From Chitinophagaceae bacterium (lineage in GTDB: Bacteria; Bacteroidota; Bacteroidia; Chitinophagales; Chitinophagaceae), in contig JAICZH010000011.1 of the NCBI GenBank assembly GCA_025933775.1, positions 1 through 47,679 of the forward strand: a stretch of DNA of 47,679 bases, read 5' to 3'. Positions 2,278 to 44,851 of this stretch are shown here, one piece after another. The translations under genes were made by a program, and so were the position numbers. Below the pieces are notes generated by a model. It was not told the DNA's origin. It saw only the letters and a list, made by a program, of their open reading frames with translations, and did no database searches. Position 1 is the stretch's first letter; each line of letters opens with the position of its first letter.

Positions 2278-3453
2278 ATGAAAAAAAAATATTTTTTGTT
2301 GCCGGTGATTTTGTTAATAGCATTGTTTTTTTCTTCATGCAGAAAAAATTTTTCTAATGTGGAAGCGCCGGAAAGTTACATCGGCGGTTCTTTCAACGAA
2401 GTGTTCGATGCCTTCTGGAACGGGATGAACAATAATTATGTATTCTGGGATATTGATACTACCAATTGGGATAATATGTATAAAATTTACAAACCCATTT
2501 TTGCAAATCTAGATATTACCAAGACAAGTGATATACAAAAGTCGGTTCAATATTTTAGGGCAATGACAGACGGGCTGATTGATTCACATTATAATCTTAC
2601 ATTCACCTCTCCTATTTCTGATTCATTTGTATCGCCTGCTTACGATCGTAAATTAAGAGCCGGAATTATAAGGCCCGCTTATGTTTTTTATCAATACGAT
2701 GCCAATTATTATTTAGATTCTCCCTATGTTTACGGCATTGATTCGGTAAATCTTTTAAATGGAAACCCTACCGAAGCTATTGCGGGAACTATTCATAAAA
2801 ATATTTTGTATCTCGGCTTTAATCAATTCAATTTAAAAAATTCTTATACCGGCACAGATAATGGCGTAAAAAAAGTATTACAATTTTTTTTAGATTATTT
2901 GCATAATCCGCCTTCCGATTTTAAAGGCGTTATTATTGATGTAAGAGGCAATGGTGGTGGAGATATTAGCGATCTTAATTTTTTGATAGGAAATTTAATT
3001 GACAATAAACTAACGGTGGGGCATACACGATATAAAAGTGGCAATGGCCGCCTCGATTATACACCATGGGCCCCGGCAATTGTAACGCCGCAAACAGGCG
3101 CTATTGCTGTAAAAGTTCCGGTAGTGGCCATCACTGATATATGGACAACGAGCATGGCGGAACTAACCGCAATGTCTATACATGCATTGCCCGATGGAAA
3201 TGGGCACACTGTTGGAGAAACCACTTGGGGAGCCACCGGCCCGCTTACCGATAATGAAATATTAAACGGCGGACAATTTACTGCAGCCAATTTTTTATTT
3301 GCTTATACATCTTCCAGTGAGTTTAAATATATAGATGGTAAAATATACGAGGGCAAAGGGTTTCCGCCCGACTATTATGTACCTTTCGATCTGCACACAT
3401 TTCAAACCATGGGCGATACTCAGTTGGAAAAAGCATTATCCCTGATGCCATAA
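2278..3453 (+). CDS. S41 family (C-terminal processing) peptidase, lipoprotein
   Basis: A 391-residue lipoprotein. Residues 1-20 form a signal sequence ending in a lipobox with Cys21 (FFSSC). The body matches bacterial S41/Tricorn-type peptidases: an N-terminal helical part (FDAFWNGMNNNYVFWDIDT), the GVIIDVRGNGGGDISD strand-loop, and WTTSMAEL with the probable nucleophile Ser292, followed by GETTWGATGP. I see no clear PDZ domain, which fits the short subfamily common in Bacteroidota. It is probably anchored in the envelope; the substrate is unknown. It sits 24 bases after the barrel gene on the same strand. Family confidence is high; activity is inferred from the conserved Ser and glycine-rich loop. 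Confidence 0.85.
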   Translation: MKKKYFLLPVILLIALFFSSCRKNFSNVEAPESYIGGSFNEVFDAFWNGMNNNYVFWDIDTTNWDNMYKIYKPIFANLDITKTSDIQKSVQYFRAMTDGLIDSHYNLTFTSPISDSFVSPAYDRKLRAGIIRPAYVFYQYDANYYLDSPYVYGIDSVNLLNGNPTEAIAGTIHKNILYLGFNQFNLKNSYTGTDNGVKKVLQFFLDYLHNPPSDFKGVIIDVRGNGGGDISDLNFLIGNLIDNKLTVGHTRYKSGNGRLDYTPWAPAIVTPQTGAIAVKVPVVAITDIWTTSMAELTAMSIHALPDGNGHTVGETTWGATGPLTDNEILNGGQFTAANFLFAYTSSSEFKYIDGKIYEGKGFPPDYYVPFDLHTFQTMGDTQLEKALSLMP

Positions 3454-3873: not shown

Positions 3874-5448
3874 ATGAAAACTTTATTGATTGCTTTGATG
3901 TGCACTTCGTGCCTGCAATTATATGCGCAAAAAACGATTACCGATTCTCTCAACAAGCGCATTGATAGCCTCGAATCTGCATTGAAAGAAAAAAATTATT
4001 CACGAATACCTATTGGCGATTTTGATAAAAATCTGGATGTGCATGTTCAGTCAGAAGTATATAATGCTTTTTACAAATACCTTGCTGTATTGGGCTTAAT
4101 TCTTTTTGGTGGCGGTTTTGGCATTTATCGCAGCCTGCAATCAGAATTAAAAAAACAGGTGGACGATGCAGTGAGCGGTAATAACGAGGCCAATAAAAAT
4201 AGTTTGAAAGATCTTGCCGATACACAGAATCGTGAAAACAACCGGCAAGATATTTTAATAAAAGCAATAACAGATAGCGTAAGTCTTATATCATCCAAAC
4301 AAGAAACATTTTTATCGGATGTATCAGCCAATGTTGAGAAAAAAATTTCTGCAGCTACACAAATCATCTGGAATGATATTGCCGATAATAAATTACGAAA
4401 TGCAAAAGAAGCTAATTATGTTGGCGGTTCATTGGCCAGAGAGTTGAATGATTTTTTGGATAATGATTCTGTTATATTAACGATGGAGAAAAAACAATTT
4501 TTAGTGGATGCGCTCATGCGTTGTTTGTATGCCACTTCGGAAAGTGAATTAAAAAAAAGCGGCTATGATAAATACAATGCAATGATTGAATTGCTGAAAA
4601 AACATGAAAGTAATATAGACCTTTTGCCTGAAACATACGCCAATGCTGCTATTGCGCTAACTAATAATTATGAGCATTATAAAAATGAAGAAGACAAAAA
4701 GCTTAGCATTGATTGCTGCGATAAAGCATTGCTTAAATTAAAAGATTATGGAATTCCTTTTGTATTAAAATTAGAAATTTATAGTATTGATTATAAAAAA
4801 GCATACGACCAGGCTGAAAGAGATGTGAGCCTCGATCAACTGCGGCGCATATTTCATGCAATTAACAACAATCAATCCGGTGCATTATTTTTTGAAGCGC
4901 TTGAGCGCATGAATGTTGATAAAAAAGTTGCTTACTTGAAACCTTATCTTGAATTGATTGAAAAAATTTGTTCTGATGAAATGTTCACTTTTAAAGAAAG
5001 AGCCGCCCGGTATTTTGTAATGCCACAATTTATGAAGCTGGAAGCATACAAAAATTCATTTTTCGATTTAATAAATGAAGCCAGCTTATCCAATACACAA
5101 ATGAACGGAACATGGAAAGCCCGTTCTTCCCTCATTGCGGGCGTTGCAGTAAAGCCGGAGGATGTTGGAATGGAAATTTCTATTAACGGTTACGACTATA
5201 CGCAAAAAGATAAAGATTATATCAATGCAGGTTACATTCATTATTTGCCTTTCACCCAACAGGCGACCATAAATTTTTATGTTTTTAATGAAAACAAAGA
5301 ATATGTGCAAACTATTTTTTGCATCAGCCAAATGCAACAAGATGGCTCATGGAAACTTTGTTCCAATTACAACAGCGATGACCGTCCTGCTGATTTTATT
5401 TCGACTGCAGATAATAAATTTTATTTGGATGAATTGGTAAAAATATAA
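3874..5448 (+). CDS. Hypothetical envelope protein: signal peptide, one membrane segment, coiled coil
   Basis: A 524-residue protein I do not recognise. Residues 1-19 are a signal peptide (LLIALMCTSCLQLYAQ). A short helical stretch follows (ITDSLNKRIDSLESALKEK), then one membrane helix at about residues 68-88 (YLAVLGLILFGGGFGIY). A long charged segment (about 89-170, SELKKQVDDAVSG to FLSDVSANVEKKI) looks like a coiled coil. The middle (170-400) is all-helical and TPR-like, with NAAIALTNNYEHYK and CCDKALLKLKDYG. The last 120 residues look like a beta-rich domain (GTWKARSSLIAGVAV, FYVFNENKEYVQTIF). The layout suggests an inner membrane protein with a large soluble domain. It is monocistronic, with no informative neighbours. 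Confidence 0.7.
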   Translation: MKTLLIALMCTSCLQLYAQKTITDSLNKRIDSLESALKEKNYSRIPIGDFDKNLDVHVQSEVYNAFYKYLAVLGLILFGGGFGIYRSLQSELKKQVDDAVSGNNEANKNSLKDLADTQNRENNRQDILIKAITDSVSLISSKQETFLSDVSANVEKKISAATQIIWNDIADNKLRNAKEANYVGGSLARELNDFLDNDSVILTMEKKQFLVDALMRCLYATSESELKKSGYDKYNAMIELLKKHESNIDLLPETYANAAIALTNNYEHYKNEEDKKLSIDCCDKALLKLKDYGIPFVLKLEIYSIDYKKAYDQAERDVSLDQLRRIFHAINNNQSGALFFEALERMNVDKKVAYLKPYLELIEKICSDEMFTFKERAARYFVMPQFMKLEAYKNSFFDLINEASLSNTQMNGTWKARSSLIAGVAVKPEDVGMEISINGYDYTQKDKDYINAGYIHYLPFTQQATINFYVFNENKEYVQTIFCISQMQQDGSWKLCSNYNSDDRPADFISTADNKFYLDELVKI

Positions 5449-5503
5449 AGATTTGTTTTTTACAATTTTCACAATTTTCGTATAGGCGGCACCGTTAGTT
5501 ATG

Positions 5504-6115: not shown

Positions 6116-9100
6116 TTAAATAGCGTTTTCTTTCATCTTCTTTAAAAAATAATACATCTGATTCATGCTACGAATATCATTCACTATTAAAATTCCATTT
6201 TTTCCAACTTGTTTTAATTTTGCTTTATTGGTTTTGGTTTGAATAAAATCAAGAATCTTTTGAAAAACTTTACTGCTGAAATAAGGCGACTCCGGATTAG
6301 CAACAAAAAAACATTTTAAAGTATTTTCTTTTACAATCATCTTCTCAAAACCCAGGTCAACAGCCATTTTGCGGCAACGTACAGTTGTAAACAAATCTTC
6401 CACCTGCGGGGGAATTGGCCCAAACCGGTCAATTATCTCTTTATGAAAATCGGTAAGGTCTTTTTCATTTTCACAATTATCTAATCGTGAGTAAAGACTT
6501 AATCTTTCGGTAATACTTTCAACATATTCATCAGGAATTAAAATTTCCAGATCAGTATCAATCGTGCAATCGGAAACATAATCATCCTGCTTTTGTATTT
6601 CTTCTTTAAACAATTCTTTAAACTCTTTTCTTTTTAATTCGCGTATTGCTTCATCTAAAATTTTTTGATACATTTCAAACCCAATTTCTGCAATAAAACC
6701 ACTTTGCTCGCCACCCAATAAATTTCCTGCACCGCGTATGTCAAGGTCACGCATCGCAATCTGGAAGCCGCTTCCAAGGTCACTGTATTGTTCGAGGGTG
6801 GTTAATCGTTTACGGCTGTCGGCAGTTAATGTGCTCATTGGCGGAGCCAGTAAATAACAAAATGCTTTTTTATTACTACGCCCAACACGGCCTCTCAATT
6901 GATGCAAATCGCTTAATCCAAATTGATGCGCATTGTTTACAATTATAGTATTCACATTCGGAATATCAACGCCGCTTTCAATAATGTTGGTACATAAAAG
7001 CACATCATATTTGCGATCCATAAAATCAAGAATAGTTTCTTCCAGTTTATCGCCTTCTAATTTTCCATGTGCATACGCAATGCTGAGATCAGGGCACAAG
7101 CCTTGTATCAATGCACGCATTTCGGCAAGACCATGCACCCGATTATGAATAAAAAAAACCTGGCCGCCTCTTTCGGTTTCATAATAAATAGCATCACGAA
7201 TAAAATCCTGGTTAAATACATGCACCTCCGTTTGAATAGGCTGACGATTAGGTGGCGGTGTATTGATAATGCTCAAATCTCTTGCACCCATTAAACTAAA
7301 TTGCAACGTTCTTGGGATAGGCGTTGCCGTTAGTGTGAGTGAATCAACTGTTGTTCGTATTTGTTTTAATTTTTCTTTTGCAGAAACGCCAAACTTTTGT
7401 TCTTCATCAATTACCATTAAACCGAGGTCTTTAAATTTTACATCTTTACCAAGCAATGCATGTGTGCCGATGATAATATCAATTTTTCCATCATGCACTT
7501 TTTGCAATGTTTCTTTTTTTTCTTTTGATGTTTTAAAACGGTTAATGTAATCTATCGTTACAGGAAAATCTTTTAAGCGATCGCTGAAAGTTTTATAATG
7601 CTGATAAGCAAGGATAGTGGTAGGAACCAGTACTGCAGCCTGTTTGCCGTCGAGATTAGTTTTAAACGCTGCTCTTATTGCCACTTCCGTTTTACCAAAA
7701 CCTACATCACCGCACACAAGCCTATCCATCGGCGAAGGTTTTTCCATATCATTTTTTACATCAACAACAGCTTTGTTTTGATCAGGAGTATCTTCATAAA
7801 TAAAGGATGCCTCCAATTCTGTTTGCATATAATTATCGGACGAGTGAGCAAAGCCTTTTAAACTTTTTCTTTGCGCATATAATTTTATAAGATCGGCTGC
7901 AATATCTTTTACTTGCTTCTTCGTTTTATCTTTTAATTTATTCCAAACATCGCTGCCGAGTTTATTCATTTTAGGAACCGTTCCTTCTTTGCCGCTGTAT
8001 TTACTTATTTTATGTAGCGATGAAATATTTACATACAAAAGATCATTATCCTTATACACAATTCTTACCGCTTCCTGCAATCTTCCATTTGCTTCAATCT
8101 TCTGCAAGCCGCTATACACGCCCACCCCATGATCAATATGGGTAACATAATCGCCGGGTTGTAATTCACGAAGTGTTTTTAAAGTAAGCGCTTTGCTTTT
8201 ACTGAATGCTTGTTTTATTCTGTATTTATGATAGCGCTGAAAAATCTGATGATCAGTATAACAAACAATTTTTAAATCATGATCAATATAACCCTCATGG
8301 ATAGGCGCAGATATGGGAGTGAAATTTATTTCAGCATTTAAATCAGCAAAAATGGTATGTAATCTTTCTAACTGTTTTGGATTATCTGCAAAAATAAATA
8401 AGCAGTATTTTTTTGTTTCAAAGCTTTTAAGATTATCAATTAATAAATTAAAGTTACGATTGAAAGCGGGCTGCAGCGCGGTGTTGAAGTGGTGGGTTGT
8501 GCGTAGTGAGTGGTGAGTTGAAAGGGGTGAGTTGTGAGTGGTGAGTTGTGAATCATCAATTTTTGTGAAATAAGATTTACTGCCTATTTCAACAATAGTT
8601 CTTTGTTTTATTTGTTCTTCTAATTCTGCAACATTTACAAAATCATTTAATGAAATATTTTTTTTAAAATTGATTTCATCTTCATCAGTTGCCTTCTGAT
8701 AGTTATTGGGATGCCGATTGTCATTTGTTTTTTGAAAATCAAGAAATGCATTCACATCTTTCCATTGCTCTTCAATTATTTCTTTGATGAATTCCCAATC
8801 TTCCGTCCATACAATTGTATTTTCAGGAAGAAAATTTAATAAAGAAACTTTTTCATCACTTGCAAATTGTGTTTCAACATTTGGAATAATATTTACCTGT
8901 AACAATTTTCTTTCGCTCAATTGAGTTTCAGGATCAAAAATGCGAATGCTGTCAATATCATTGCCAAATAATTCTATGCGGTAAGGCTTTTCATTGCCGT
9001 AAGAATAAATATCAAGAATACCTCCTCGTAAGGCAAACTGCCCCGGCTCATACACAAAATCTGTCCGGTTAAAACCATATTCAACAAACTTAGAAAGCAA

Positions 9101-13806: not shown

Positions 13807-14179
13807 TCAAAAAACAATTCTTTTCCATGTGAGAGATTTTTCTCCAAAATTTATAATCATTCCTAACTTTTGCTGCGCTACCGATAAATAACTTAAAGCC
13901 TGGTAAGTATGGCTTTCAATGATCGCACTTAGAGATTTCACTTCCAAAATGATAGAATTATATACCAAAAAATCTGCCTGATAAGGATTGCGTAATATTC
14001 TTTCCTTATTTTACAGTAAATCTCTTTTCTCTTTCATAAGGAATATTATTTTAGATGAATTCGATTTCCATTGCATCTTTATAATTAATTTCTTTTAAAC
14101 CCATGCCCAGTGTTTTATGTATTTCCATACATATTCCTATGATTTTAAAAGATCCTTCTTTAAATAGTAACTCTGCCAT
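13807..14179 (-). pseudogene. Decayed GxxExxY family gene
   Basis: Read on the minus strand from an ATG at 14179, the sequence starts MAELLFKEGSFKIIGICMEI and matches the GxxExxY family start (ELLYKELSYKIIGAAMEVH). Codon 43, at 14053-14051, is a TAA where the family continues. The same frame then reads NNIPYEREKRFTVK up to a second stop at 14008. Past a net two-base loss there, another frame reads RNPYQADFLVYNSIILEVKS, IIESHTYQALSYLSVAQQKL and GMIINFGEKSLTWKRIVF to a TGA at 13807, an intact family C-terminus. Two lesions in a roughly 124-codon gene mark it as non-functional. GxxExxY proteins are uncharacterised and distantly nuclease-like in some classifications. Confidence 0.85.
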
Positions 14180-14210
14180 TTGTAAAAGTAATTAGTGTAA
14201 TTCGATTAAA
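14086..14210. repeat. Tandem duplication, copy 1 (N-terminal GxxExxY segment plus upstream DNA)
   Basis: This 125-base segment aligns base by base with 14231-14355, a period of 145 with 20 unique bases between. It covers the first about 31 codons of the GxxExxY pseudogene and the bases upstream of its ATG, including a degenerate copy of the flanking AATTnGTGTAATTCG element at about 14191-14208. The copies differ at scattered positions, so the duplication is not recent. Confidence 0.75.
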
Positions 14211-14230
14211 TCCGTGTAGTAAATGCTTAT

Positions 14231-14355
14231 TAATTTCCTTTAAACCCATCCCAAGTGTTTTGTGTATTTCCATACCTATTCCAATAATCTTAAAAGGTTC
14301 TTCTTTAAAATAGTAACTCTGCCATTTGTAAAAGTAATTAGTGTAATTCGATAAA
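14231..14355. pseudogene. Second, truncated copy of the GxxExxY N-terminus
   Basis: On the minus strand an ATG at 14325 starts MAELLF and then hits TAA, because one extra T relative to the other copy shifts the frame. If corrected it reads on as KEEPFKIIGIGMEIHKTLGM and GLKEIN before homology ends. It is a partial tandem duplicate of the pseudogene at 13807-14179 and cannot encode a protein. It ends just before the stop codon of dtd. Confidence 0.7.
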
Positions 14356-14368
14356 ATTAGTGTAATAA
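14335..14368. repeat. Right arm of inverted repeat flanking the GxxExxY pseudogene
   Basis: This arm shares the pattern AATTnGTGTAATTCG and TAAAATTnGTGTAAT with the reverse complement of 13773-13806; the three n positions are C in the left arm and A here. It abuts the dtd stop codon. A further degenerate copy is inside the duplicated unit at 14191-14224. Confidence 0.7.
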
Positions 14369-14369
14369 A

Positions 14370-14822
14370 TTATTCCCTATTCTTCGTGTCAATCCAAATC
14401 GTTACCGGCCCGTCATTAATTAAAGCCACTTTCATATCGCCGCCAAAAACTCCGGTATGTATTTTTTTACCAAGGTCTTTTGATAAGTGAATAATAAATT
14501 TTTCATAGAGAGGAATAGCTATTTCAGCCTTACTTGCTTTAATGTAAGATGGCCTGTTTCCTTTTTTGGTAGCAGCATGCAATGTAAACTGGCTCACTAC
14601 TAAAATATCTCCATCAATATCTTTTACAGAAATATTCGGTATTTTATTTTCATCATCAAAAATGCGCAGATTGACTATCTTATTACTCAGCCATTCAATA
14701 TCTTTTTCATTGTCATTATCTTCAATGCCAACCAATACCAGCAAGCCTTTGGCGATGTTTCCTTCTGATAAAGAATTAACTGATACAGATGCTTCAGATA
14801 CCCGTTGAATTACTGCTCTCAT
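14370..14822 (-). CDS. dtd: D-aminoacyl-tRNA deacylase
   Basis: A 150-residue enzyme that hydrolyses D-amino acids (and mischarged glycine) from tRNA, protecting translation. It is the normal length for DTD and starts with the typical MRAVIQRVSEASVSV. The active-site motifs are present: SQFTLHA (about residues 77-83), with its Thr/Gln, and the NDGPVTIWIDTK segment near the C-terminus, whose Gly-Pro cis-peptide pair gives chiral selectivity. The KKGNRPSY loop is also conserved. It stands alone, with the decayed GxxExxY locus directly downstream. Confidence 0.96.
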   Translation of the reverse strand: MRAVIQRVSEASVSVNSLSEGNIAKGLLVLVGIEDNDNEKDIEWLSNKIVNLRIFDDENKIPNISVKDIDGDILVVSQFTLHAATKKGNRPSYIKASKAEIAIPLYEKFIIHLSKDLGKKIHTGVFGGDMKVALINDGPVTIWIDTKNRE

Positions 14823-18000: not shown

Positions 18001-18415
18001 ATCCGGAATGGTGGACCATCCTAACATTAAAACCACCACTTCTATCATTGATTTTATTTTCCGTTCATTGGCTTATGAATATTTAGGAAGAAATGACCTC
18101 GTGCACGTACTCGATAAGCCGGAAGTTGAAAACACCGGCAATGCACCATGGGATGAAAATACGCCAACCATTGGCGAAAGAGTTCCTGAATTAAGCGAAG
18201 TGCGTGTAATGGGCTCCACTAACGGTAACGCACAAACGCAGAAACAAAAAACAGATACCACAAAAAAAATAAACAAAGAATATGATGCTGTAAACTCTGC
18301 TGCAAAAAATATGCAGAGCGATGCGCCGGCATGTAATACTTGCGGGCATATAACAATCAGAAGTGGCACTTGTTATAAATGTTTGAATTGTGGCAACAGC
18401 ATGGGATGCAGTTAG
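15056..18415 (+). CDS. nrdJ: Adenosylcobalamin-dependent (class II) ribonucleotide reductase
   Basis: A 1119-residue enzyme that makes deoxyribonucleotides using adenosylcobalamin, so it needs no oxygen-dependent radical subunit. Visible parts: CVPNSPQWFNTGLHEVYG (about residues 130-147), RIFKYGSGVGTNFSSIRGEGEKLSGGG, the finger-loop NPCSEYMFLDNTACNLASVNL (about 388-408), and GTIGLVMDCDTTGVEPDFA (about 590). The C-terminus has a four-Cys ribbon, CNTCGHITIRSGTCYKC, then LNCGNSMGCS (about 1090-1119), which probably supplies the redox-active cysteines. Residues about 838-860 are a Lys-rich linker containing a repeat-derived MDNGQLAIDNE. No second RNR subunit is in the window. A strong hairpin terminator follows. 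Confidence 0.97.
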   Translation: MPNKNVPSTGLRFHRQFTKDGISPFDMFEYDYRISVIKNTTGEIVFKMDNVEVPKQWSQIATDILAQKYFRKAGIPQPDGTTGRETSIKQVAHRMAHCWRVWGEKNHYFASAEDAQIFYEEIVYAILNQSCVPNSPQWFNTGLHEVYGITGKPQGHYFVDAKDGQLKKSTSAYERPQPHACFILSVEDDLVNEGGIMDLWVREARIFKYGSGVGTNFSSIRGEGEKLSGGGTSSGLMSFLKIGDRAAGAIKSGGTTRRAAKMVCLDLDHPEIESFVNWKVEEEKKVAALIEAGYPSDYEGEAYKTVSGQNSNNSVRIPNEFFHALENDSDWELKARSDNRTMKKVKAKKLWDDITYAAWRCADPGTQYNTTINEWHTCPEGGSIRASNPCSEYMFLDNTACNLASVNLRRFFNEADNSFDVNGFEFTVRLWTTVLEISVLMAQFPSKEVAQLSYDYRTLGLGYANLGSMLMVNGIAYDSEEARGIAGAITAIMTGIAYKTSAELASQLGPFRKYGENKQHMLRVMHNHRAAAYDAMDAYEGIEIKPQGINAKYCPDYLLKAATKAWDDAVMMGEKYGYRNAQTTVIAPTGTIGLVMDCDTTGVEPDFALVKFKKLSGGGYFKIINQSVPQALRNLKYNENEIDEIVNYAKGHATLNGAPHINPVSLAERGFNGIEIQRLEGAMSSAFEICFVFNVYNLGEECLQRLGFKPEDYNNFEWSLLHALGFSEEQIEEANTYICGTMTVEGAPYLKQEHLSVFDCANKCGNIGKRFIHHGGHIRMMAATQPFISGAISKTINLPNEATINEIAEAYKLSWQLGLKACALYRDGSKLSQPLSNKSDKKKKMDNGQLAIDNEIKTNESRIVDMSQLTVEDLLEEMNKRVQNSADTALKRQLAMIVERRTLPAKRRGFTQKAKINGQALFLRTGEYSDGTLGEIFIDMAKEGATMRSMLNCFAIAISIGLQYGVPLEEFVEKFVFTRFEPSGMVDHPNIKTTTSIIDFIFRSLAYEYLGRNDLVHVLDKPEVENTGNAPWDENTPTIGERVPELSEVRVMGSTNGNAQTQKQKTDTTKKINKEYDAVNSAAKNMQSDAPACNTCGHITIRSGTCYKCLNCGNSMGCS
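17588..17620. repeat. GACAATG-type low-complexity repeat inside nrdJ
   Basis: The stretch reads ATG-GACAATG-GACAATTAGCAAT-AGACAATGAA, i.e. three copies of (G/A)GACAAT within 30 bases, in frame as MDNGQLAIDNE (residues 845-855). It directly follows a run of lysine codons. Its repetitive composition differs from the flanking conserved coding sequence and it falls between the barrel domain and the C-terminal domain. Confidence 0.65.
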
Positions 18416-21766: not shown

Positions 21767-22477
21767 GTGCATTTTTTAAAAAATATTTTTTCTTCAAAAG
21801 CAGATAAAGATTTAAGAATACAACTACGCAACGTTCTTGGCTTGCATCCCGGAAAATTAAATTTGTATAAAACCGCTCTCAGCCATCGTTCCATAAGAGA
21901 AGGCGCCGATGAAAATAATGAACGCCTCGAATTTTTAGGCGATGCAGTGCTTAGCTCATTAGTTGCTCATTATCTTTTTATGCGCTATCCTTATAAAGAT
22001 GAAGGCTTCTTAACTGAGATGCGAAGTAAGATGGTAAATCGAAACCAATTAAATGAAATTGCATTAAAAATCGGATTGAAAAAAATTACCATCTATAATC
22101 GCTTTGATAATTCTTTAAAAATTTCACAGATATTCGGCAACACGCTGGAAGCCGTAGTGGGCGCGGTTTACCTTGATAAAGGATATAGAAAAACACGCTA
22201 TTGGGTAAATCAGCATATCATTAGTCCGCACTTTTTTATGGAGGATTTGGAAAATCTCGACATCAATCAAAAAAATAAATTGTATGGATGGGCAAATAAG
22301 AATGGAAAAAATCTGGAGTTTGAAACGCTCGATGAAAAAATAGAAAATGGAAGAAGGCTTTTTACCATTGCTGCAAAAGTGGATGGAATCGTAATTGCCG
22401 AAGCAAAAGCGTTTAATAAAAAAGACGCCAGCCAGGTAGCCGCACAAATTGCTGTAGAAAAATTAGGACTGTTATGA
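21767..22477 (+). CDS. rnc: Ribonuclease III
   Basis: A 236-residue double-strand-specific endoribonuclease that matures rRNA and structured RNAs. The catalytic signature NERLEFLGDAVLSSL is at about residues 51-65, with the second acidic cluster in NTLEAVVGAVYLDKGY (about 125-140). A C-terminal double-stranded RNA-binding domain follows (NKLYGWANKNGKNLEFETLDEK to AAQIAVEKLGLL). The start is a GTG at 21767. The gene overlaps gpsA by four bases (ATGA), which implies translational coupling. Confidence 0.95.
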   Translation: MHFLKNIFSSKADKDLRIQLRNVLGLHPGKLNLYKTALSHRSIREGADENNERLEFLGDAVLSSLVAHYLFMRYPYKDEGFLTEMRSKMVNRNQLNEIALKIGLKKITIYNRFDNSLKISQIFGNTLEAVVGAVYLDKGYRKTRYWVNQHIISPHFFMEDLENLDINQKNKLYGWANKNGKNLEFETLDEKIENGRRLFTIAAKVDGIVIAEAKAFNKKDASQVAAQIAVEKLGLL

Positions 22478-23544
22478 AATTCGCAATCATTGGAAGCGGA
22501 AGCTGGGGAACCGCGCTGGCAAAGATTTTAACCGATAATAAAAATTCAATTAACTGGTGGATACGAAGCGAAGCCATTATAGATCATTTTAAAAAACGCC
22601 ATCATAACCCGCAATATTTAAGCTCGGCATATTTTAATACCGGCTTATTAAATTTTTATACTGATATTAAAAAAACAATCAACGATGCTGATTGCATTAT
22701 AATTGCCGTTCCCTCCGCATATATTTTGGATGTGATAAATGATTTGCCCAAAAATATTTTTAATGATAAAAAAATTATTTCTGCAGTAAAAGGAATATTG
22801 CCCGAGCAAAATTTATTGCTCAACGATTATCTTAAAAATAAGTATGAAGTAGATCTTGTAAATTATTTTACCATACTTGGGCCATGCCATGCAGAAGAAG
22901 TTGCTGCCGAAAAATTATCGTATCTCACTTTTACCGGAATTGATAAGTCAACAGCACAATCCATCGCATCTTATTTTAAAAACGATTACATCAACACTAT
23001 TGAAAACACTGATATTTATGGAGTGCAGTATGCATCGGTTCTTAAAAATATTTATGCATTGGGCGCCGGTATTGCTCATGGGCTTGAGTATGGCGATAAT
23101 TTTTTGAGTGTGCTTATTGCTAACAGCGCCGATGAGATGGCGGGTTTTTTAAGAAAAGCAGGAATACAAAATGTAGAAGTAGGAAGCATTGAACACAAAC
23201 TAACCTGCCTACCGGACAGGCAGGCGGTAACGCACACACGAAATGAAAAGCACACTACTAATTATGCAGCTTCGGTTTATCTTGGTGATCTTTTGGTAAC
23301 CTGCTATTCTTTGTATAGCCGCAATCGTACATTCGGAAATATGATTGGCAAAGGCTATTCGGTAAAGGCTGCACAGCTGGAAATGAATATGGTTGCCGAA
23401 GGTTATAATGCCAGCAAATGCATTTATATCATCAATAAAAAAATTAATGCCGAAATGCCTGTTGCTGAAACTATTTATAAAATTTTATGGGAACAGTTTT
23501 CACCCGAGGAGGGCTTTAAAAAAATTGAAGAAACTTTGGTGTAA
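22474..23544 (+). CDS. gpsA: Glycerol-3-phosphate dehydrogenase [NAD(P)+]
   Basis: A 356-residue enzyme that reduces dihydroxyacetone phosphate to sn-glycerol-3-phosphate for phospholipid synthesis. The N-terminal Rossmann motif GSGSWGTALAKIL (about residues 7-19), the SAVKGILPEQ segment and the catalytic-lysine helix QYASVLKNIYALGAGIAHGL (about 188-207) are present. The C-terminal domain ends with GYNASKCIYIINKK and TIYKILWEQ. It is about 20 residues longer than usual: residues about 241-259 (LTCLPDRQAVTHTRNEKH) interrupt the conserved region before NYAASVYLGDLLVTC. Part of this insert is encoded by a palindromic repeat. The frame stays open, so the enzyme is probably functional. Confidence 0.94.
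   Translation: MKFAIIGSGSWGTALAKILTDNKNSINWWIRSEAIIDHFKKRHHNPQYLSSAYFNTGLLNFYTDIKKTINDADCIIIAVPSAYILDVINDLPKNIFNDKKIISAVKGILPEQNLLLNDYLKNKYEVDLVNYFTILGPCHAEEVAAEKLSYLTFTGIDKSTAQSIASYFKNDYINTIENTDIYGVQYASVLKNIYALGAGIAHGLEYGDNFLSVLIANSADEMAGFLRKAGIQNVEVGSIEHKLTCLPDRQAVTHTRNEKHTTNYAASVYLGDLLVTCYSLYSRNRTFGNMIGKGYSVKAAQLEMNMVAEGYNASKCIYIINKKINAEMPVAETIYKILWEQFSPEEGFKKIEETLV
23204..23224. repeat. CCTGCCT/AGGCAGG palindrome inside gpsA
   Basis: Seven-base arms CCTGCCT (23204-23210) and AGGCAGG (23218-23224) enclose ACCGGAC. Its high GC content stands out in an AT-rich gene. It reads in frame as part of CLPDRQA and falls within the extra segment of GpsA. Palindromes with this core are recognised by me as a dispersed repeat of Bacteroidota genomes; that part is from memory. 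Confidence 0.8.
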
Positions 23545-25313: not shown

Positions 25314-26762
25314 ATGTCGTTACTAAAAAAATATGAACCGGTAATAGGCCTTGAAGTACACACACAGTTGCTTACAAAAAGTAAATTGTTTTGCGGCGAT
25401 AGCGCTATATTTGGCGCTGCACCTAATACACAGGTGAGCCCTGTTTCTTTGGCGCATCCCGGCACTTTGCCTGTGATGAATAAAAAAGCAATTGATTATG
25501 CAATAAAGATTGGCGTTGCTTTTAATTGCGATATTATCCGCCATAATTATTTTGCAAGAAAAAATTATTTCTATCCTGATCTTCCGAAAGGTTACCAGGT
25601 TTCGCAGCACACCACTCCCATTTGCAAAAATGGTTTTGTAACTATTATGATTAATGGCGTCCAAAAAAATATTTTATTAAACAGAATCCATCTTGAAGAA
25701 GATGCAGGAAAAAGTATTCATGATGCTGATGAAAATTTTACTTGCATTGATTTGAATCGTGCAGGAGTTCCCTTGCTTGAAATCGTTTCTGAGCCTGATA
25801 TGCACAGTGCAGAAGAAGCGTACACTTATGTAACTGAAATAAGAAAAATTGTGCGTTATCTGGAAATATGCGATGGTAATATGGAAGAAGGAAGTATGCG
25901 ATGCGATGCCAATATTTCTGTAAGATTAAGAGGAGAAAAAAAATTGGGAACAAAAGTGGAAGTAAAAAATCTTAACTCAATACGGAATGTAAAACGAGCC
26001 ATTGATTTTGAAATAAACCGGCTTATTCATTTATTGGAAAATAATGAAGAAGTAATGCAGCAAACAAGAAGCTTTGATGCGGTAAGCGGCACTACATTTT
26101 CACTAAGGGATAAAGAAGAAGCCAATGATTACCGGTATTTTTCTGAGCCAGACCTTACGCCTTTTTTTATTACTGATGAAAAAATTGAATCTATAAAAAA
26201 ATCATTGCCCGTGTTGCCGGCTGTGCTGGAAAAGAAATTTATTTTCGAGTATGCGTTACCGTTAGCTGATGCAAAAATTCTTTGCGATGACAGGGAAACA
26301 GCAACATTTTTTGAAAATATAATTTGCCATACAAGAAATTATAAAGCAGCCGCCAACTGGGTTTTGGGCCCTGTGAAATCTTATTTAAATGATACCAATA
26401 CCTCACTTGATTCGCTTCCGGTTCATCCCGAAACATTTGCAAAACTTATAGAGATTATTGAGGCAGGAAAAGTGAGCTTTAGTGTGGCAGCATCGCGAAT
26501 ATTTCCTGTTTTAATAAACTTTCCGGAAAAAGAACCTATTGAAATTACCAAAGAATTAAATCTTTTGCAGGAAAAAAATGATGATTCCTTACGATCGTGG
26601 ATAGACGAAGTTTTATCGAAAATGCCTGATAAAGTTTTGGAATACAAAAAAGGTAAAAAAAATTTAATAGGTTTATTTTCTGGCGAAGTAAAAAAAATAA
26701 GCAAAGGCAAAGCCGATATGAAAGCGGTAAATCAATTACTCAATCAAAAACTCAATCAATAA
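25314..26762 (+). CDS. gatB: Aspartyl/glutamyl-tRNA(Asn/Gln) amidotransferase subunit B
   Basis: A 482-residue subunit of the GatCAB complex, which converts Glu-tRNA(Gln) and Asp-tRNA(Asn) to the amidated forms; GatB binds the tRNA and activates the carboxyl group. I use the ATG at 25314 (MSLLKKYEPVIGLEVHTQL), the family start, and not the in-frame ATG at 25254, which lies at the terminator. Family motifs include PGTLPVMNKKAIDYA, YFYPDLPKGYQVSQ, LEEDAGKSIHD, NRAGVPLLEIVSEPD and DYRYFSEPDL. The C-terminal tail is the YqeY-like domain. gatA and gatC are not in the window. The next gene starts six bases downstream. Confidence 0.97.
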   Translation: MSLLKKYEPVIGLEVHTQLLTKSKLFCGDSAIFGAAPNTQVSPVSLAHPGTLPVMNKKAIDYAIKIGVAFNCDIIRHNYFARKNYFYPDLPKGYQVSQHTTPICKNGFVTIMINGVQKNILLNRIHLEEDAGKSIHDADENFTCIDLNRAGVPLLEIVSEPDMHSAEEAYTYVTEIRKIVRYLEICDGNMEEGSMRCDANISVRLRGEKKLGTKVEVKNLNSIRNVKRAIDFEINRLIHLLENNEEVMQQTRSFDAVSGTTFSLRDKEEANDYRYFSEPDLTPFFITDEKIESIKKSLPVLPAVLEKKFIFEYALPLADAKILCDDRETATFFENIICHTRNYKAAANWVLGPVKSYLNDTNTSLDSLPVHPETFAKLIEIIEAGKVSFSVAASRIFPVLINFPEKEPIEITKELNLLQEKNDDSLRSWIDEVLSKMPDKVLEYKKGKKNLIGLFSGEVKKISKGKADMKAVNQLLNQKLNQ

Positions 26763-37783: not shown

Positions 37784-40591
37784 TTATAAAAATGATTTTA
37801 CTTTTTCAATAACTGCTGAAAGCTTTGATGCGTCCTGTCCTCCAGCTGTTGCCAATGTTTTTTGTCCACCACCCCCACCCTTAATCAACGGCGCAATATT
37901 TTCTTTAATTATTTTTGATGCATCCAAATTTTTATCAGCAGCCACAGTGTCATCAAGCATTAAAGCAACATGTGGCTTACCTTCAATAGTACTTGCTAAA
38001 ACGATTACATAATTCTTCATCCGATAATTATCGGATTCATTTTTTAATAAAAAGCAAATCTTCTTTAAAGACTCAACATTAAAAACATCAACAACTTTTC
38101 CAATAAAATTTATTCCATTTATTGTTTCCACTTGCTGCAAAAGATCATTCTTTAATAAAGCAAGCTGTTTTGTTTCAAACCTTTCAGATTGCTTTTTTAA
38201 TTCACCGTTTTCATTGATAAGATTATCTATCGCTTTAAAAATATCTTTTGGATTTTTTAGACTTTGGCGAATATTATGGATTAAGTTAAATTCTTTTTGC
38301 ACATAATCTTCGGCAGCCTTACCACTCAATGCTTCAATGCGCCGGATACCTGCTCCCACAGCCGTTTCTGCAATTATTTTAAAAAATCCTATCTCACCTG
38401 TATTGCCAACATGTGTTCCGCCGCAAAGTTCAACTGAATAATCCGGATCAATAGTTACCACACGAACGGTATCGCCATATTTTTCGCCAAACAATGCCAT
38501 TGCACCGGTTTTCAACGCTTCTTCTTTTGGTAAAAATTGTATTATAACGGGAACGCATAAACGAATTTTTTCATTCACGATGGTTTCTATTTTTTTTATT
38601 TCACCATCGGTAAGTTTTGCAAAATGAGAAAAATCGAAACGCAAATATTCATCATTGACAAGACTGCCTTTTTGCGCAACATGATTGCCTAAAACCTGCC
38701 GCAACGCTGCATGAAGCAAATGCGTAGCGCTGTGGTGAATGGCAGTTTTTTTTCTTTTATCTAAATCAATTTTAGCAATAACTTTTGTTTCAACATTTGT
38801 TGGAAGTTTTTCAATAAAATGAATGATAAGATCATTTTCTTTTTTAGTATCTACAACCGGAATTTTTTCTTCATCAAAAAACAAAACCCCTGTATCGCCC
38901 ACCTGGCCGCCACTTTCAGCATAAAAAGGAGTAACATCTAAAACAATTTGATACAACTGTTTCCCCTGCGATTTCGTTTTCCGGTATTTTAAAACTTTAC
39001 TTTCAGTTTTAGAATTTTCATAACCAACAAATTTTGAAGAACCATTTTCATTTATGGTTATCCAATCTTCTGCATCAATAAAGCTTGCTGCGCGTGAACG
39101 ATTTTTTTGAAGTTGCATTTCTTTTTCAAAACCTGCTTCATCAACCGTAAATCCATATTCTGCAACTATTAATTTTGTTAGATCTAAAGGAAATCCATAA
39201 GTATCACTTAACTCAAAAGCGAATTTTCCATCTATCTCTTTAATTTTTTTTATTTCATCTTTTAAATTGTGAAGCTTCATTAATTTATTTTGGATATAAA
39301 TATTAAGCTTTAAAAGTCCAACTCCTAACGTGCGTAAAAAAGCCTCTTCTTCTTCCTTAACAACTTTTGTAATAAAATCTTTCTGTGCATTCAGTTCAGG
39401 AAAAACATTTTCAAACTGCCCCGCAATAACAAAAACCAATTGATGTAGCAAAGGAAATTTATAATCTAAATAAGAATAATAATAACGAACAGCCCTTCGT
39501 AAAATTCGGCGAATAACGTAACCTGCGCCGGTATTTGATGGTAATTGTCCATCAGCAATAGTAAAACAAATTGCTCTTATATGATCTGCAATTACTCTAA
39601 AGGCCACTGCTGTCTTTACAATTTTAGGTAGTCCAATTTCAGCGGCTTTTGCAATTTCAGTTTGTAAAAAAGCTATTTGAATATCTTCTCCATAAGACTT
39701 TAAATCGATTTCATTCGAGTTAACTTTTATCAAAGAAGATGTATCAGATATATATTTTTTACCCGTTATTTTTTCTATTGCTGCAATCGTTCCGGTAAAA
39801 ATATCCGTATCGTAATTGCTTTGTTTATTTTGTAAAACTCTTACCAATCTTTCAAAACCCATTCCCGTATCTACATGCTTTGCTGGCAAGGGTTCCAGGC
39901 TTCCGTCTTTTTTACGGTTGTACTGAATAAATACAATATTCCATATTTCTATTACCTGGGGATCGTCATTATTTATCAAGGTTTTTCCATCAACTTTTTT
40001 TCTTTCATCGTCTGTTCTGCTATCATAATGTATTTCAGAAGAAGGGCCACAGGGGCCGCTATCACCCATTTCCCAAAAGTTATCTTTTTTATTTCCCAAA
40101 AGAATTCTTTCTTCATCAATCCATTTTTTCCATTCATTGTACGCTTCTTCATCTTTTAATAAATTTTCTTTTTTATCGCCTTTAAAAACGGTTACGTATA
40201 AACGATCTTTATCCATTTTAAAAACTTCCGTTAATAATTCCCAAGCCCATGCAATCGCTTCTTTTTTAAAATAGGGCGATGCATTTCCTTCACCATTGCC
40301 AAAGCTCCAGTTGCCAAGCATTTCAAACATTGTGTGGTGATACGTATCCACACCTACTTCTTCCAAATCATTATGCTTGCCGCTTACTCGTAAACATTTT
40401 TGCGTATCGGCAACTCGTGTATAAGCAGGTTTTTTATTTCCTAAAAAATAATCTTTGAATTGATTCATTCCTGCATTGGTAAACATCAATGTAGGATCGT
40501 GTTTAATTACAATAGGTGCAGAAGGAACGATTACGTGCTCTTTCGATTTAAAAAAATCAAAAAAAATTTGTCGTATTGCTTCGCTTTGCAT
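37784..40591 (-). CDS. alaS: Alanyl-tRNA synthetase
   Basis: A 935-residue class II synthetase with editing function. The catalytic core holds MLGNWSFGNGEGNASPYFKKEAIAWAWELL and DSGPCGPSSEIHYD. The editing domain has the zinc-binding HHSATHLLHAAL (about residues 615-626) and LCGGTHVGNTGEIGFFKI (about 721-738). The C-terminal DHHA1 domain ends with IAPLIKGGGGGQKTLATAGGQDASKLSAVIEKVKSFL. It is somewhat longer than the 876 residues of the Escherichia coli enzyme, as is usual in this phylum. The start MQSEAIRQIFFDFFKSKEH is the family start. Confidence 0.98.
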   Translation of the reverse strand: MQSEAIRQIFFDFFKSKEHVIVPSAPIVIKHDPTLMFTNAGMNQFKDYFLGNKKPAYTRVADTQKCLRVSGKHNDLEEVGVDTYHHTMFEMLGNWSFGNGEGNASPYFKKEAIAWAWELLTEVFKMDKDRLYVTVFKGDKKENLLKDEEAYNEWKKWIDEERILLGNKKDNFWEMGDSGPCGPSSEIHYDSRTDDERKKVDGKTLINNDDPQVIEIWNIVFIQYNRKKDGSLEPLPAKHVDTGMGFERLVRVLQNKQSNYDTDIFTGTIAAIEKITGKKYISDTSSLIKVNSNEIDLKSYGEDIQIAFLQTEIAKAAEIGLPKIVKTAVAFRVIADHIRAICFTIADGQLPSNTGAGYVIRRILRRAVRYYYSYLDYKFPLLHQLVFVIAGQFENVFPELNAQKDFITKVVKEEEEAFLRTLGVGLLKLNIYIQNKLMKLHNLKDEIKKIKEIDGKFAFELSDTYGFPLDLTKLIVAEYGFTVDEAGFEKEMQLQKNRSRAASFIDAEDWITINENGSSKFVGYENSKTESKVLKYRKTKSQGKQLYQIVLDVTPFYAESGGQVGDTGVLFFDEEKIPVVDTKKENDLIIHFIEKLPTNVETKVIAKIDLDKRKKTAIHHSATHLLHAALRQVLGNHVAQKGSLVNDEYLRFDFSHFAKLTDGEIKKIETIVNEKIRLCVPVIIQFLPKEEALKTGAMALFGEKYGDTVRVVTIDPDYSVELCGGTHVGNTGEIGFFKIIAETAVGAGIRRIEALSGKAAEDYVQKEFNLIHNIRQSLKNPKDIFKAIDNLINENGELKKQSERFETKQLALLKNDLLQQVETINGINFIGKVVDVFNVESLKKICFLLKNESDNYRMKNYVIVLASTIEGKPHVALMLDDTVAADKNLDASKIIKENIAPLIKGGGGGQKTLATAGGQDASKLSAVIEKVKSFL

Positions 40592-44020: not shown

Positions 44021-44851
44021 CTAATGAAGCGAATAAATTTCGAGGCGTTGATTTTTCAAAACATAAATGAATTGATTATTTACTTCAATTGAATTAGCAT
44101 TTTGCAATGCAGATGAAAGCGGATATTTTTTTACATCTGGATACGGTGGAATATAGCGATACAAATAGTTTTCATCAAAACCATAAATTTTTTTATCTAT
44201 CACGGCAATATTTTTCCAATGCAAAAAAGATAATTTATTTTTAAAGCTTCCATAATAATCAAAAATGTACAATCCTTTTTCAGGATCATATAAATAGACA
44301 AAGCCATCGCTGTCTATAATTTTTCGCGGAGTGGGAACCGAATCAAAAAGCAAACGGAAATCAACAGTTTCAAAAAGAATATTGCCATCGTCATCAATCT
44401 TTTTTAATTTATTATCCTGCTCATCATACAACCAGATGTTATTATCATAAGAAGTAGTTACTGCCTGTACCTGGAAAATATTTTGCTTACGCAAATTGAG
44501 GCTGGTAAGCACGTTCAGATATTTATCCAACAATACAATGGTGGAATAATTTTTATAAAACAAAATTGTTTTCCATGGATTTTGTGCCTGCACATACGTA
44601 AGCTTTCCATATTTGGTAACCTGGTTAAATAGGCCGACAGAATCTCCTTTTTCATTATATTTTTTTAGTTGATTATCGGTATTAATGATATACAGCTCAC
44701 CAAGATTATCCACTGCAAAAGAAGAAATAGAATATTCTATTTTTTTAAAAAAACGAAATAATGAATCGTCCTGTGCATTTACTTTTATAGATAAAAAAAC
44801 AAATATAACGGTAACGGCTATACGAAAATATTTATGGCAAATAGGAATCAT
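44021..44851 (-). CDS. Secreted beta-propeller-like hypothetical protein (276 aa)
   Basis: A 276-residue exported protein with a signal peptide ending SIKVNAQ (about residue 26). The mature part consists of repeated short strands with aromatic and Asp turns (FAVDNLGELYIINTDNQLKKYNEKGDSVGLF, NIWLYDEQDNKLKKIDDDGNILFET, GFVYLYDPEKGLYIFDYYGSFKN, KIYGFDENYLYRYIPPY), about six units. This resembles NHL or SMP-30-like propellers, where each unit has a YLYD or WLYD core. I do not recognise a specific family. Its start overlaps the lpxH stop by four bases, so it is translationally coupled to lpxH. Confidence 0.7.
   Translation of the reverse strand: MIPICHKYFRIAVTVIFVFLSIKVNAQDDSLFRFFKKIEYSISSFAVDNLGELYIINTDNQLKKYNEKGDSVGLFNQVTKYGKLTYVQAQNPWKTILFYKNYSTIVLLDKYLNVLTSLNLRKQNIFQVQAVTTSYDNNIWLYDEQDNKLKKIDDDGNILFETVDFRLLFDSVPTPRKIIDSDGFVYLYDPEKGLYIFDYYGSFKNKLSFLHWKNIAVIDKKIYGFDENYLYRYIPPYPDVKKYPLSSALQNANSIEVNNQFIYVLKNQRLEIYSLH

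Follow-up and report, generated by a model that had tools for sequence, protein, structure and literature searches.

A 21-nt palindrome lying in frame in gpsA belongs to a family that we interpret, with a probability of about 0.8, as a small non-autonomous mobile element, mostly 19–22 nt long and patchily distributed across Bacteroidota, whose location is shaped by a reading-frame filter. The window, the whole 47,679-nt stretch of DNA analysed here, carries gpsA, the gene for NAD(P)-dependent glycerol-3-phosphate dehydrogenase, at 22474–23544 on the forward strand. Its 356-aa product is normal apart from the insert (Pfam PF01210, PF07479, and PF20618; PDB homologues 1z82 and 3k96). The palindrome, CCTGCCTACCGGACAGGCAGG, occupies 23204–23224 (+), equal to seven codons, and has no counterpart in the closest orthologue. 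As the preliminary description had stated, its arms are CCTGCCT and AGGCAGG and it reads in frame as (T)CLPDRQA. The pattern CCTGCCT(N7)AGGCAGG matched only this copy in the window and never in 100 dinucleotide shuffles, and a search of the window against Rfam at gathering thresholds was negative. The palindrome splits a second, dispersed motif, with the left half (ACTAA, from a consensus of 33 copies) at 23199–23203 (+) and the right half (CGGTAACGCACACACGAAA; 17.8 bits for the half-copy) at 23225–23243 (+). The preliminary description overlooked both the identity of these flanks and the relationship, reported below, between palindrome length and genic or intergenic location.

Matches to GpsA were found in 57 of 59 genomes, including the window's own, and 30 fetched loci were aligned, one of which was the window itself. 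The palindrome was absent from the loop in all 29 other loci, in agreement with the earlier expectation that relatives would lack it. The loop, which precedes NYAASVYLGD / NYAASVYLGDLLV, was hypervariable and differed in length among the 30 aligned loci. The closest GpsA found, from genome G016, shared 81% identity, was 9 residues shorter, and had TFMPIR in place of KLTCLPDRQAVTHTR, leaving a local gap of 27 nt in the hypervariable loop. Since the loop is hypervariable and the flanks belong to a motif that evolved in place, the 21-nt palindrome is the only definable insertion. The preliminary description was therefore correct about the palindrome and its frame, but its insert of about 20 residues (about 60 nt) was overstated and included normal loop. 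The variation in loop length among relatives would also fit a native GpsA loop that is palindromic by coincidence, but the same 21-mer occurs in unrelated genes of this and other genomes, a copy number that refutes this explanation and leaves its probability close to nil. In a sister species (G012, L055), the same GpsA loop carries another, different insert, VQLVHSTSSGETGSLEYSRSLR, some 20 residues long, and the DNA there contains CGGAGTCTCCG.

Far from being unique to gpsA, the palindrome had many copies in the window's own genome (G000, 3.25 Mb in 197 contigs). It occurred at 14 places with a 7-nt loop and at 19 with a loop of 4–9 nt, of which 16 lay inside ORFs of 150 aa or more; a reversed-pattern control had no match. 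Besides gpsA, the genes hit included lepA, maf, topA, anmK, and those for kynureninase, phosphoglucomutase, an RsmB/F-type methyltransferase, and another methyltransferase. A gene that we take from our own reading of the sequence to be alpha-2-macroglobulin-like was hit twice (L003, L004). The palindrome was present in 59 of 149 genomes (own included) at 0 to 99 copies each, and the control in 2. Genome G015, from the same genus as G000, had 65 copies, and six other listed members of the genus had none. A sample of the phylum contained the palindrome in 89 of 296 genomes, where low counts mean little because the control also matched, by our count, in 22 of the 296, once with 50 matches. Those 50 matches to the backwards pattern were in G347, which thus has an abundant palindrome of its own. 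In the literature searched, which covered few subscription papers, we found no description of this palindrome by sequence, peptide, or topic. One 350-aa ORF (L006, G000 contig C108) contained a second, apparently decayed palindrome (TDLPTGQVGANTYT), again with flanks resembling motif halves on both sides.

Genic or intergenic location tracked palindrome length. We scored a copy as genic if its ORF reached 150 aa, a mechanical rule, read 50 of the 65 copies in G015, and dropped from the length counts and the removal test described below any copy less than 150 nt from the end of its locus (3 of those 50). All 14 of the 21-mers in G000 were genic compared with 2 of 5 19/20-mers, and in G015 22 of 27 21-mers were genic compared with 3 of 20 19/20-mers. 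For the two genomes together, 36/41 21-mers and 5/25 19/20-mers were genic (Fisher p = 4e-8). A mixture of other genomes showed a weaker pattern (21-mers 7/14, 18-mers 0/2, other lengths 2/25), and in all genomes counted 43/55 21-mers were genic. Palindromes of this kind provide a natural experiment on insertion tolerance, with the same palindrome in frame-neutral and frame-breaking lengths; the place where each length survives shows the strength of the selection filter in genes and the tolerated seven-residue peptide.

The 20 non-genic 19/20-mers were not broken genes, with the exception of L159 and perhaps L160. None of the 20 attained an ORF of 150 aa in a scripted test in which the palindrome alone was removed; L159 reached 225 aa if one more nucleotide was taken out, and L160 reached 124–128 aa. 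The genic 19/20-mers comprised four 20-mers and one 19-mer (L197). Removal of exactly 20 nt shortened the ORF in all four 20-mers (L162 from 475 to 458 aa, L199 from 413 to 374, L155 from 351 to 178, and L183 from 388 to 275), so a 20-nt gain does not account for their present frame. All four fit a gain of 21 nt, which an orthologue confirms for L162 only; taking out the palindrome plus one nucleotide keeps any open frame by arithmetic and is no evidence by itself. Under our reading, the palindrome would insert widely with a slightly variable length, and selection would remove the copies that break a frame, leaving survivors that add a presumably harmless loop of seven residues.

The encoded peptide was also biased. 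Among 40 genic oriented 21-mers (12 from G000, 22 from G015, and 6 from others), LP(T/A)GQAG, the product of one of the six possible frames, appeared in 29, and CLPDRQ, a minority form that includes gpsA, appeared in 5. The palindrome lay on the same strand relative to the gene in 36 of the 40. The simplest reading is that selection favoured a small, cysteine-free loop, and the peptide and strand preference may also stem from an insertion bias.

Sites with and without the palindrome indicate that it behaves as mobile. Orthologous alignments spanned four palindrome sites. At two of these the gap was clean and 21 nt long, namely kynureninase (L001) compared with G015 and L162 compared with G016. 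The others were gpsA, with its 27-nt gap in the variable loop, and L014, which aligned uncleanly. Structural homologues lacked 7 residues at the palindrome in kynureninase (PDB 3e9k) and 6 in LepA (PDB 2ywe), and Maf of G000 was 14 rather than 7 residues longer than PDB 1ex2 at that point. Within G015, repeat families had members with and without the palindrome, which are different members of one family and not orthologous sites, with the junctions GGGGGAGA^TTTAGAGG and CTGAACCATGA^TTTATGG. One pair consisted of GGGGGAGATTTAGAGGGGGC versus GGGGGGAGA-palindrome-TTTAGAGAGGG, and the other of GTCTGAACCATGATTTATGGGATT versus ...CCATGA-palindrome-TTTATAG. The orthologues and the repeat-family sites together support the earlier proposal of a mobile palindrome tolerated in frame in a core metabolic gene.

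No target duplication, the mark of a MITE of a DDE transposon, was seen in the G015 family pairs that were read. Across 45 oriented copies, flanking repeats were in slight excess: repeats of at least 4 nt occurred in 3 compared with 0.8 in shuffles (largest 5), and a 6-mer was shared across the insert in 8 compared with 2.0 (largest 7). In L014, one of those three, the palindrome was flanked by a 7-nt direct repeat. Some copies may therefore have a target duplication or lie among local repeats. The flanking bases of 34 oriented copies outside G000 were A on the left in 24 and T or C on the right in 28. Outside G000 the palindrome was often embedded in other repeated words, some of them loosely tandem and specific to one genome (ACTACAAA, GACACAA, AACGCTAAACGC), which look like further dispersed repeats (L158, L194, and L195 in G015; L127 in G122; L254–L268 in G112 and G072).

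Nine of the 19 palindromes in G000 lay inside the same dispersed motif as the gpsA copy, which is itself one of them (L008; the others are L002, L003, L004, L005, L009, L011, L012, and L147). All nine were preceded by ACTAA and followed by a form of CGGTAACGC..., which began with CGG in seven, CTG in L004, and CGC in L012. The insertion bond was CTAA^C, mostly CTAA^CGG. By arithmetic, 9 of 19 uniformly random hits on about 560–700 points in 3.25 Mb would have a probability of about 1e-28, which is essentially impossible. About half of the copies in G000 would have landed at one bond of an unrelated dispersed motif, and the pattern points to a site-specific link between motif and mobile palindrome.

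The same nine copies, with ACTAA on one side and a form of the right half opposite, could also be seen as complete versions of a single 45-nt mobile element, ACTAA-palindrome-CGGTAACGCnTAnACGAA, of which the 67 exact short copies of the motif would be deletion products. Orthologue alignments and protein positions led us to reject this composite, which we consider very improbable. Short copies in E1-beta and prephenate dehydrogenase code for conserved positions and add no length, and 12 orthologous motif sites had no gap of more than 1 nt inside the motif. In LepA, the motif-encoded GNAYT corresponds to native GNTYK and the palindrome is the extra part. Palindrome flanks in other genomes were also quite different.

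The motif itself, ACTAACGGTAACGCnTAnACGAAA, is spaced and asymmetric, spans about 24 nt, and was present in and between genes of G000. Its 13-nt core had 67 exact copies in that genome, of which 26 fell within ORFs of 150 aa or longer; the pattern TAACGGNNNNGCNTANACG with at most one mismatch had 565 matches compared with 8 for the control. Orientation looked random (37 versus 30 of the 67; neighbours in a contig were in the same orientation in 11 cases and opposite in 12), and one inverted pair was seen (L026). A reading of the sequence as a protein motif, NGxAYT, was rejected, since 10 of 33 exact copies had a stop codon in that frame. A position-specific scoring matrix (PSSM) found 11 places in the window at 12 bits or more, including the gpsA half-copy and one borderline case at 12.0, and none in each of three shuffles. 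The mismatch spectrum was graded, with 11 places at 1–4 mismatches and none in two Markov shuffles. The motif did not emerge from counts of 9-mers in the window.

Intact copies were found at 18217–18245 (+; 37.3 bits), in a 1119-aa ORF and ungapped against the G016 orthologue, at 26239–26267 (−; 39.3 bits), in a 502-aa ORF, and at 842–870 (−; 40.2 bits), outside any ORF of at least 60 aa. Variant copies were at 5472–5500 (−; 29.8 bits), 44803–44831 (+; 26.7 bits), 38542–38570 (+; 25.7 bits), 3008–3036 (+; 23.2 bits), 7307–7335 (−; 22.8 bits), and 5181–5209 (+; 21.3 bits). The copy at 7307–7335 may be a native look-alike, as the G016 orthologue is nearly identical.

Relatives carried weaker versions. 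G016 had a degenerate form with 41 PSSM matches scoring 16 bits or more over 400 kb, compared with none in a third-order Markov shuffle, and 218 pattern matches compared with 8 for the control. The top 10-mer in those 400 kb was the motif tail (6 versus 0.11 expected). Among 99 genomes, motif counts in other members of the genus varied between that of the control and 95. Four of the family's other genera were clearly above control (count/control: G021 76/20, G027 64/9, G076 44/8, G081 30/5), and genomes of other families were not. A scan of contigs, which possibly left out the own genome, recovered the exact motif in a single Chitinophagaceae MAG contig.

Copies of the motif build up through point changes in place and not by insertion. 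Orthologue alignment was tried at 131 sites and spanned 17, and at all 12 motif sites with a spanning alignment, excluding the gpsA half-copy, the gap inside the motif was at most 1 nt. Three of the 12 (L020, L023, L043) were ascertained, because the relatives' loci (L078–L088) had been fetched for holding the motif; the remaining nine were not, and two of those nine match the motif weakly and may be native. The pattern resembles the gradual drive that the available parts of PMC1939737 describe for uptake sequences. Like the USS and DUS of Pasteurellaceae and Neisseriaceae, the motif is strongly overrepresented with no orientation preference seen, lies in genes and intergenic regions, evolved gradually in place, and is weaker in relatives. 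It is a candidate, and differs in being longer, spaced (~24 nt), and in Bacteroidota. The paired inverted USS copies of Haemophilus influenzae form terminators, according to the portion of PMC5217627 consulted.

A DNA-uptake-type signal is our best guess for the motif, offered tentatively and at somewhat less than even odds. An uptake sequence would be unusual in Bacteroidota, and none was found described for the phylum in the mostly open literature that was covered. The motif would provide a candidate of this type in what is probably Chitinophagaceae. G000 has one ComEC-family gene (on C123), and the family was also present in 10 of 14 control genomes. A binding site for a chromosome-organising or repair protein, or an iterated sequence like HIP1, would likewise suit a long, spaced, non-palindromic motif in and between genes, and we regard this as a real possibility that still falls short of an even chance. 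The seemingly random orientation speaks against it, being unlike that of Chi or KOPS. Both the motif and the HIP1 of cyanobacteria are iterated short sequences, but the motif is far longer and asymmetric, whereas HIP1 is an 8-bp palindrome (GCGATCGC) in the part of PMC4390886 available. Overrepresented 10-mers such as AAAAATAAAA occur in Flavobacteriaceae, with their function left open in the accessible part of PMC7965970.

The palindrome was likened in the preliminary description to the palindromic elements in Rickettsia proteins, and the comparison is supported as an analogy. RPE-1, RPE-4, and RPE-6 occur in genes of R. conorii, RPE-1 being longer, and REPs are 20–40 nt palindromes at high copy that are sometimes intragenic (both from the portion of PMC3733652 available). 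Like RPE, the palindrome is small, occurs in and between genes, and sits in frame in conserved proteins where homologues lack it; by analogy it may work like RPE and intragenic REPs. It differs from RPE in its phylum, its unit of 21 nt or seven codons, the genic/intergenic split between 21 and 19/20 nt, and its frequent insertion into other repeats. It shares with the REP/RAYT system a comparable size, high copy number, and some intragenic copies, but its 21-mers are mostly intragenic (43/55) and REPs mostly intergenic, and neither a constant tag nor a REPtron was found for it.

Our best guess for the mobiliser is a Y1-HUH (RAYT-like) single-strand transposase acting in trans, although we would sooner bet against it than for it. 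The narrower proposal, a GTAG/CGTC-type REP moved by its cognate RAYT (a tyrosine Y1 transposase), is rather unlikely. Y1 chemistry leaves no target duplication, which fits the family pairs, and each of the 21 genomes that carried five or more palindromes had a Y1_Tnp match compared with 114/149 overall (Fisher p = 0.002), in a comparison that ignores phylogeny and uses a threshold of 5 that we chose ourselves. G000 had two Y1_Tnp matches over the cut-off and one just below. Against a cognate pair, the palindrome was present in only 2 of 35 loci around 33 Y1_Tnp genes, at a distance of roughly 1 kb or more in loci that mostly extend ~1.5 kb from the gene, and none of the 35 loci held a REPtron, a transposase gene flanked by the same repeat. 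The hairpins beside the two clear Y1_Tnp genes of G000 were other sequences, and no autonomous partner was found among them. No GTAG/CGTC tag was constant either: copies in the G000 motif had CTAA, those elsewhere were mixed, and GTAG occurred in single copies only. A still more comprehensive scheme, in which ACTAACGGTAACGCnTAnACGAAA is a Bacteroidota uptake sequence with graded dialects in genus and family, its core CTAA^CGG is the preferred landing site of a palindrome with frame-filtered length, and uptake or single-strand processing is linked to insertion, is unlikely when taken as a whole.

A series of short hairpins with GTTCC...GGAAC arms adjoined one of the Y1 transposase genes in G000 (L120, contig C30, 4949–5346); these make up a further family of small palindromes and are perhaps the REP of that gene. 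A GC-rich hairpin, ACATAGGGCGCAAGCCCTATGT, adjoined the second (L100, contig C115, 936–957). Elsewhere in the window, at 14084–14370, a unit of about 145 nt was present twice in tandem, the copies being nearly identical (86–88% identity).
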